Source of the DNA: Helicobacter marmotae
Lineage (GTDB): Bacteria > Campylobacterota > Campylobacteria > Campylobacterales > Helicobacteraceae
Direction: 5' to 3'
DNA length: 64,000 bases
Assembly (NCBI RefSeq): GCF_003364255.1
Contig: NZ_NXLR01000001.1
Coordinates: forward strand, 124,001 to 188,000
The stretch's first letter is position 1. Each line of letters starts with the position of its first letter. The translations under genes and the position numbers were made by a program. Of the stretch, positions 621 to 33,665 are shown in pieces. The notes under the pieces were generated by a model. It was not told where the DNA came from. It made no database searches and saw only the letters and a program-made list of their open reading frames with translations.

Positions 621-686
621 ATCATTTAATATCTTGGTTTGCAAAAGTGAATTTTGCAAACCGCCTAAAGCCCTGCGGGGGGCGCT
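621..686 (+). repeat. Family-B repeat, partial copy 1a
   Basis: Contains the variable first hairpin of family B. GGTTTGCAAAA at 636-646 pairs perfectly with TTTTGCAAACC at 652-662 around the loop GTGAA. The conserved CCGCCTAAAG follows, but the copy then jumps straight to the G-rich 3' end (CTGCGGGGGGCGCT). The second hairpin is missing, so this is an internally deleted copy. Confidence 0.75.
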
Positions 687-835: not shown

Positions 836-903
836 TGTCGGCTTTCTAAGGGTTTTATTATGAAACGCCCGCCCTTATTAAAGCGCCTTTTGCGGGGGCT
901 TTT
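836..903 (+). repeat. Family-B repeat, 3' half (copy 1b)
   Basis: Matches the 3' half of the fuller copies. It begins in TTTCTAAGGG, passes through GGGTTTTATTATGAAACGCC and CCCTTATTAAAGCGCC, and ends in a G run. The arms TAAGGG and CCCTTA can pair. It is fused directly to a family-A half element ending near 835, and the same composite arrangement recurs around 7094-7230. Confidence 0.7.
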
Positions 904-6742: not shown

Positions 6743-6881
6743 CATCATTTAATGTCTTGGTTTGCGGGAGTGAATCCCGCTCCGCGCCTAAAGATTGACT
6801 AGTAAGCGCGCTTTGCGCGTTTATCAAGTCGTTTTCTAAGGGTTTTAAATCCTCGCCTAAAGCGCCTTTTGCGGGGGCGCT
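6743..6881 (+). repeat. Family-B hairpin repeat, copy 2
   Basis: A fuller copy. First hairpin: GCGGGA (6764-6769), loop GTGAA, TCCCGC (6775-6780). Second hairpin: GACT, TAA and CGCGC pair with GCGCG, TTA and AGTC around a three-base loop in roughly 6797-6830. It then shares TCGTTTTCTAAGGGTTTTA and ends AGCGCC...GGCGCT, which can form a third stem. The stems differ in sequence from the other copies but still pair. Confidence 0.8.
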
Positions 6882-6946
6882 CTCTTGGGCTTCGCCCTCC
6901 TTAAAATCCCTCAAAGATACTTCCGCATTTGGTGCTTCTTTTCATT

Positions 6947-7094
6947 AGTTTAAAATCTTGCTTCGTGTGGAATTAATCCACACTTCGCGCCTAAAGCTTG
7001 ACTAAAGCTTGCGCTTACGCTTATCTATCAAGTCGTTTTCTAAGGGTTTTATTATGAAACGCCCGCCCTTATTAAAGCGCCCTGCGGGGGGCAC
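6947..7094 (+). repeat. Family-B hairpin repeat, copy 3
   Basis: First hairpin: GTGTGGA (6965-6971), loop ATTAA, TCCACAC (6977-6983). The conserved GCGCCTAAAGCTTGACT follows, then a weaker second hairpin closing on AAGTC. The conserved TCTAAGGGTTTTATTATGAA and the G-rich end (CCCTGCGGGGGGC) complete the copy. It lies 65 bp after copy 2 in the same orientation. Confidence 0.8.
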
Positions 7095-7418
7095 TATTTT
7101 TGACTTTGCTACCCGCTTGTGTAATTCCTTTTTTTCAAACTGCCGCGTCTGGGGTTCTTTTGCGGGTCATTAGTTTGTCATGTCTATAGGGCTTAGCCCT
7201 GAAGAATCTCTGTCGGCTTTCTAGTGGCTCGTTTGTGAATACTTCGGTCGGGCTTTGCCCTCCCTCAGAATGACAAACTAAGCTCCTTTTCTCAAACTCC
7301 CCTCTCGCCCGCTCTCCTCTCAAGCCTTTAAAAAGTGTGCTTAGTTCCCCTATGAAACTCAAAGCGCGGCGGTATCTTTAGGCTAGTTTGCAAGTTTGCT
7401 TTATGACTCCTCCAAAGC

Positions 7419-33280: not shown

Positions 33281-33378
33281 TTGTCATTCTGAGGGAGCGC
33301 AGCAACCGAAGAATCTCTGTGGGCGACTAGTGATTCCTTTAGAGATTCTTCGGGCATAAAGCCCGCAAGACATGACAA
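33281..33378. repeat. Family-A palindromic element, full copy
   Basis: 98 bp starting TTGTCATTCTGAG and ending CATGACAA. Internal arms CGAAGAATCTCT (33307-33318) and AGAGATTCTTCG (33341-33352) are perfectly complementary around the central GTGGGCGACTAGTGATTCC. The outer ends pair less perfectly than in the 41814 copy because one side carries the TCATGTC variant. Confidence 0.88.
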
Positions 33379-33527
33379 AGTAACTGCCTTTCTAGCGTTT
33401 CTGTTAAGGAGTCTTTAGCGGATAAGAGAGATTCTTCGCCTAAAGGCTCAGAATGACAAACTTACCACCTTACCACACAGGCGAAAAACCAAAACCACCC
33501 AAAAGGGTAGAAAAGTCAGATTGAGTG

Positions 33528-33665
33528 CCCCCCCCCCGAAAGGCGCTTTGGCATTTCATAATCAAGCCCTTAGAAAACGACTTGATAGATAAGCGTAGCT
33601 TAGCTATAAGTCAAGCTTTAGGCGGTATGTGTGAATTCATTTCACACATACCAAGATATTAAATC
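33528..33665 (-). repeat. Family-B hairpin repeat, copy 4 (inverted)
   Basis: First hairpin: GGTATGTGTGAA (33624-33635), five-base loop, TTCACACATACC (33641-33652), perfect 12 bp. Second hairpin (about 33572-33606 on the plus strand): GACTT, ATAG and TAAGC pair with GCTTA, CTAT and AAGTC. At the distal end the short G run of other copies is expanded to ten bases (C10 on the plus strand, 33528-33537). Both stems differ in sequence from copies 1-3 but pair fully. Confidence 0.85.

Follow-up and report, generated by a model that had tools for sequence, protein, structure and literature searches.

Covarying repeats of Helicobacter are probably an undescribed structured leader RNA of phages that has spread as a dispersed repeat

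Repeated stem-loop cassettes are found in the intergenic gaps of T4-like phages, where the PeSL cassettes are credited with gene shuffling (Arbiol 2010; Comeau 2014, as cited in PMC4503421). The Helicobacter element considered here resembles them in being a repeated stem-loop cassette of phage intergenic gaps; however, PeSL join an early promoter to a stem-loop, whereas the Helicobacter element is a multi-hairpin, covarying fold positioned before a Shine-Dalgarno sequence and is dispersed in the host. The put RNA of phage HK022 consists of two stem-loops, with non-canonical pairs in stem II (PMC9378689). Like put, the element has two adjacent hairpins of about 70–90 nt in phage mRNA, with a junction of one base, but a single phage holds several copies of it, located ahead of transposition and tail genes, and its arms are not conserved in sequence. 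The REP/BIME-RAYT and other bacterial palindromic repeats share with it the character of short, dispersed intergenic hairpins in tandem or mosaic arrangement, at tens per genome, yet no Y1 transposase was detected in the genomes that carry the element, which has a multi-hairpin RNA-type fold and occupies a leader position in phages. Finally, the hopC motif of Helicobacter is a covarying structured RNA found by comparative genomics and tied to adhesin genes (PMC2864571); it is also a covarying 5′ leader of protein genes, whereas the element stands ahead of a wide range of unrelated phage genes, occurs in multiple copies and is without a model in Rfam. PeSL and put are the nearest in spirit, but the element does not clearly fall in with either.

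An earlier, sequence-only reading of the window (the whole 64,000-nt stretch of Helicobacter marmotae DNA analysed here) had described four copies or parts of a hairpin-bearing repeat and knew of no described family to match it. The searches agree with this: Rfam 15 returned no hits above the gathering cut-off in the window or in five prophage loci, the two sub-threshold hits (E 2.7–4.9) being attributable to chance, and no description of the element was found in the open literature. The four copies lie where they had been placed. Their features are given below, P2 being the first stem-loop of the earlier reading.

33568..33656, + strand: core element of copy 4 (P4[P3]-P2-AAGA); model R1, 97.5 bits, E 1.2e-18, a score that is partly by construction because the first-built model contains copy 4
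33624..33652, + strand: P2 hairpin of copy 4, GGTATGTGTGAA / TTCACACATACC, 12 pairs (sequence)
33579..33612, + strand: P3 hairpin of copy 4, GACTT-g-ATAG..CTAT-AAGTC (sequence); the P3 pairs covary
33569..33574, + strand: 5′ arm of P4 in copy 4, CTTAGA; its partner is 33617-33622, with two G-U pairs; conserved, without covariation
33617..33622, + strand: 3′ arm of P4 in copy 4, TTTAGG
6956..7045, − strand (folding strand): core element of copy 3; model R1, 61.1 bits, E 9.5e-11
6965-6983, − strand: inner stem of P2 in copy 3, GTGTGGA/TCCACAC, with a GAA/GAA internal loop in P2
6755..6841, − strand (folding strand): core element of copy 2; model R1, 55.8 bits, E 1.3e-9
6764-6780, − strand: inner stem of P2 in copy 2, GCGGGA/TCCCGC
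about 6795-6831, − strand: P3 of copy 2, CGCGC/GCGCG
625..670, − strand: copy 1, partial, P2 alone with its feet, stem 636-646 / 652-662 (pattern match; sequence)
669..685, − strand: alternative 5′ hairpin of copy 1, AGCCCTGCGGGGGGCGC, replacing P3/P4; shared with many other copies and with H. cinaedi prophage BK070062 (sequence)
843..897, − strand: partial copy, a TTTCTAAGGGTTTTA...AAAGCGCC block without P2 (pattern with one mismatch at G000:C11:124842; sequence)

The four first stems pair as previously written, namely GGTTTGCAAAA around GTGAA, GCGGGA around GTGAA, GTGTGGA around ATTAA and GGTATGTGTGAA around ATGAA. The claim of perfect pairing holds for these stems but not across the family, in which two copies of the window's genome (G000) have reciprocal half-exchanged arms, GGTATG...CAAACC and GGTTTG...CATACC (C52:77399 and C18:1482), which shows that arms mutate one at a time or are exchanged by recombination. 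In copies 2 and 4, the pairing of the second hairpin is that given in the earlier reading, while copy 3 has a partly altered version; copy 1 retains the first hairpin alone, and where the second would stand it has another one (GCCCTGCGGGGGGC). On the folding strand, P2 of copy 3 is a 12-step helix with the GAA/GAA purine internal loop, and the GCGGGA and GTGTGGA stems of copies 2 and 3 are more than plain short stems. A second dispersed family, with the ends TTTGTCATTCTGAG...GAAGAATCTC, adjoins many copies of the element in G000 and is present in the window at 795-960, 7170-7290 and 33360-33450.

Read on the folding strand, R1, the element comprises P4 (CUUARA/UUUAGG) around P3, one unpaired base, P2, the motif AAGA (replaced by GGUCUU in other genera) and often a third hairpin, P1, the pairing of which was judged by eye. 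P4/P3 and P2 are one column apart in the alignment, and the loop class is restricted to UUNAY or UUU. Many G000 copies have P3/P4 swapped for another hairpin (AGUGCCCCCCGCAGGGC-UUUAGG), and since the same swap is present in H. cinaedi prophage BK070062, the element is modular in chromosome and phage alike.

The fold is supported by covariation at several sampling depths. In 19 aligned copies, 94 % of the cells pair and 18/31 pairs changed on both sides, and for G000 alone (43 aligned copies) 94 % of the pair cells are kept, and in 16 pairs both partners have changed. Across 63 distinct copies from genomes and phages, 91.2 % of the pair cells are standard, compared with ≤48 % for slid structures, and 23/31 pairs show two-sided change (467 doubly changed cells vs 148 in shuffles), counts that lean towards structure as the alignment was fitted to the model. 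Because shuffles ignore relatedness, a tree-aware null was also run in our own implementation (R-scape in spirit): substitutions, placed by parsimony on a tree from FastTree, were moved within each branch to randomly chosen columns in 150 rounds, and every pair received a G-test score with average-product correction. This returned E < 0.05 for 18 of the 31 pairs and for no pair outside the structure, bearing out the proposal of the sequence-only reading that structure is kept rather than sequence; arms that vary without pairing, which that reading had set against its own proposal, are not the pattern of the 63 copies. P4 does not covary because it is nearly invariant, and its support consists of conservation and G-U pairs. 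P2 and P3, on the other hand, hold the fold while their arms exchange by compensatory change.

The folding strand is R1, the reverse complement of the strand on which the structure had been described: it is favoured by its G·U pairs, by internal loops in which purine faces purine and by the conserved enclosing helix, as would be expected of an RNA made from R1. The TTTTCTAAGG block, noted previously as conserved, pairs with CCTAAA on this strand. When both strands of 50 elements were folded, mean energies were equal and the enclosing helix was consistent on R1 only. A-C on one strand is G-U on the other. The imperfect pairs on R1 comprise 145 G-U vs 28 A-C overall (47 vs 23 without P4), and the internal mismatches of P2 comprise 53 purine-purine, 7 pyrimidine-pyrimidine and 9 A-C, all of these being counts in which cells represent copies rather than independent events, so that p-values are indicative.

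The element extends well beyond the window. The feet of the first hairpin, TCTTG-N20-30-GCCTAAAG, gave 43 matches in G000 (reversed control, 0); hence, the four copies first described are real but belong to a genome total of ~43 first hairpins. The same pattern gave 33 matches in congener G056 and 15 in congener G060, where the feet are identical, the enclosed stems are entirely different from those of G000 and the wider context consists of three hairpins. Some 20 different combinations of arm and loop are present among the more than 40 copies of G000. A covariance-model search, as the earlier reading had proposed, located the element in 13/121 Helicobacteraceae genomes of three genera (model R1; 34 copies in G000, 35 in G056, 31 in G060, 27 in G106, 15 in G108 and few elsewhere), with the TCTT foot in the g1 genomes and a different foot in the g4 and g10 genomes. 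REP/RAYT and IS200/IS605-derived elements have a conserved 5′ tetranucleotide beside the hairpin. An order-wide search with the model covered 399 genomes, leaving out the other high-copy genomes, and scored 10 candidates per genome, limits that leave room for the element outside Helicobacteraceae. A pattern scan of genome contigs yielded a single match, L119, judged to be chance, while pattern scans of viral contigs yielded none; protein scans of viral contigs returned one phage contig, IMGVR_UViG_2791355303, from which the element is absent.

In several of the low-copy genomes, the element resides in prophages. In G055 and G062, the element is located in a Mu-like prophage (transposase with rve and Mu-transpos_C, MuB-like ATPase phrog_296), in G059 in a tailed prophage (integrase, primase, capsid and lysozyme) and in G103 and G109 in tailed prophages (head, tail sheath and tape measure), while the copies of G049, G053 and G058 are not evidently within a phage. 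The element is also present in the published Helicobacter prophages BK070158, BK070062, BK070092 and BK070152, and BLAST matched part of one leader to 59 phage records, nearly all of them H. cinaedi prophages. A Shine-Dalgarno sequence and start codon lie downstream of 17/25 prophage copies on R1 and of 0/25 on the opposite strand, at 20–29 or 51–60 nt, two distances that reflect the absence or presence of P1. By the rule used, the other 8/25 lack a start codon inside 110 nt, and several of these are the upstream partner in a tandem pair. The whole interval between two co-directional genes of BK070158 (end 4298 to start 4417) is taken up by the element together with its linker. Genes that follow the leader include those for MuB (phrog_296), Gam (phrog_491, end-protection), a major tail protein (phrog_807), an RCC1-repeat tail protein and phrog_55, whose product is annotated as 'phage tail protein' in BK070152. 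The phrog_55 leader occurs at the same place in two different phages with P2 and P1 arms that are different but paired, and this is compensatory exchange at an orthologous site.

Related Mu-like phages of H. trogontum, H. enhydrae and H. pullorum gave no convincing match to the element, so that phages of this type can evidently do without the leader. Different strong hairpins occupy the same pre-MuB place in the Mu-like phages L336 (IMGVR_UViG_2791355303), L338, L339 and L342; GCAGTGGGGGATATACCCCACTGC, directly ahead of the Shine-Dalgarno sequence, is an example from these other-Helicobacter phages. A simple sigma-70 scan of the + strand of one phage stretch detected no promoter near the leaders, although Helicobacter promoters may be missed by such a scan, and terminator scoring of that stretch found 1/3 elements to be terminator-like, a count not above that of shuffles. 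In a PeSL cassette, the stem-loop acts as a terminator. An integron attC site goes with an integron integrase and a cassette array, and the prophage leader position argues against reading the element as one.

Taken together, the repeats are probably copies of a structured leader RNA of Helicobacter phages that lacks an earlier description and has become a dispersed repeat; of the three options offered earlier (a structured RNA, a folded single-stranded DNA substrate or a mobile element), a structured RNA is the best fit. Within the phage, the element would act in cis, as an intercistronic 5′ leader. It would raise, or else protect, the expression of the gene that follows, most likely by providing a structured, stable 5′ end for the downstream mRNA. 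This role is favoured because the gaps between co-directional genes are filled and structural genes are among those preceded, and because the Shine-Dalgarno sequence is left free and any arm sequence is tolerated. Selection would then act on shape rather than sequence, and the arms may have diverged because identical repeats within one phage genome would recombine and be purged. The chromosomal copies would be descendants of the leaders, having been carried along as passengers or moved by some mobiliser.

Among the alternatives, a site for a phage RNA-binding protein that controls translation of the next gene is unlikely: the conserved unpaired AAGA/GGUCUU, the restricted loops and the closeness to the Shine-Dalgarno sequence would all suit such a site, but the Shine-Dalgarno sequence is outside the fold and no candidate protein was found. 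About as unlikely is a role like that of HK022 put, in which the element would be an RNA for processive antitermination and its adjacent hairpins would let RNA polymerase read through the terminators of a phage operon. The two hairpins, one-base junction, length of about 90 nt, non-canonical pairs in the second stem and phage setting are reminiscent of put; however, put comprises two copies that share sequence and lie downstream of early promoters, whereas here several copies per phage lie directly ahead of start codons, including those of tail genes, with arms that are free to change.

Most copies of the element are chromosomal, and in some chromosomes tens of copies are dispersed without fixed orientation; a Shine-Dalgarno sequence and start codon follow 9/65 chromosomal copies on R1 and 9/65 on the opposite strand. 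In many G000 copies the hairpin is still followed by the 3′ linker of the phage, CATTAAATCAAT (or ATATTAAATCAAT), the former being common to phage leaders and chromosomal copies, but these copies lead to no Shine-Dalgarno sequence, which suggests that the chromosomal copies may derive from phage leaders. At the site of window copy 4, downstream of glcD, three genomes (G000, G056 and G060) carry the element, which takes two orientations among them, and eight congeners lack it; at this one site compared, the copies behave as lineage-specific insertions. Such filled and empty sites, along with the high copy number, the tandem and mosaic arrays and the presence of TTATAGAATCTA on both sides of nearly every G056 copy, could be accommodated by a non-autonomous single-stranded-DNA mobile element (REP/RAYT, IS200/IS605), the hairpins of which would be substrates of a Y1 transposase and the phage copies of which would be mere insertions. 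This seems improbable to us. The Y1 transposase (PF01797) was detected in 0/11 genus genomes and 0/13 element-bearing genomes, leaving the single-stranded-DNA substrate of the earlier reading without a REP/IS200-type enzyme, and insertion would not yield the 17:0 orientation ahead of phage start codons. Moreover, the 12-mer TTATAGAATCTA is itself an abundant motif (740 in G056, with 1 in the reversed control; 42–83 in congeners; 0 in G106) and so need not be a target duplication. The mobile-element option is probably right for the chromosome, judging from the site compared, but it misses the prophage copies, which stand ahead of genes in one fixed orientation.

Retrotransposition was rejected since reverse transcriptase (PF00078) is absent from the high-copy genomes G000, G056, G060, G106 and G108. 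The PF00078 genes among the carriers are confined to G049 (L344) and G053 (L345 and L346), the two g4 genomes.

It seems doubtful that the host keeps dozens of transcribed leader mimics to soak up a phage factor, as an RNA decoy against induction or superinfection. Very improbable, in our view, is that the palindromes are regenerated during copying, an idea also raised by the sequence-only reading; template switching would bring this about, or gene conversion from arm to arm, and the structure would not be under selection. Many P2 arms in G000 are indeed perfect, and the half-exchanged arms at C52:77399 and C18:1482 would be consistent with such a process. However, GAA/GAA and GCA/GAA internal loops persist at one P2 position in several genomes, which argues against arm copying during replication, as palindrome correction would erase these conserved purine loops; nor would it favour G-U pairs on one strand, the excess of which is confined to R1. 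P3 also changes pair by pair, and the hairpin spacing and single-stranded motifs are fixed. Least credible of all is a role as terminators or as 3′-UTR elements of the host's genes in the orientation first described, in which 18/23 G056 copies closely follow a gene, for the other genomes show no orientation rule, the folding strand is the other one and no U run follows the hairpins, an absence for which intrinsic terminators were rejected.

If the repeats are phage leaders, as we favour, the leaders of Helicobacter phages, among them phages of the human opportunist H. cinaedi, gain a strongly covarying RNA that had not been described, and one element would lead two lives, as phage leader and as chromosomal repeat. 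As one genome can hold many copies that are alike in fold but unlike in sequence, the element is in addition a natural experiment, well suited to finding which feature of the shape is recognised.

Two departures from the usual P3 were observed. A hairpin-like 28-nt unit, CAAGTGTGGATAAGCACAAGTGCGTATG, is inserted at the P3 bulge (L220:8110-8225 vs L221:594-681; also G060 copy L178), and this is one repeat family nested within another. In G060, the single copies L147 and L185 have P3 lengthened to a long uninterrupted hairpin (~18 pairs in L147), compared with the 13 interrupted pairs of P3 elsewhere.
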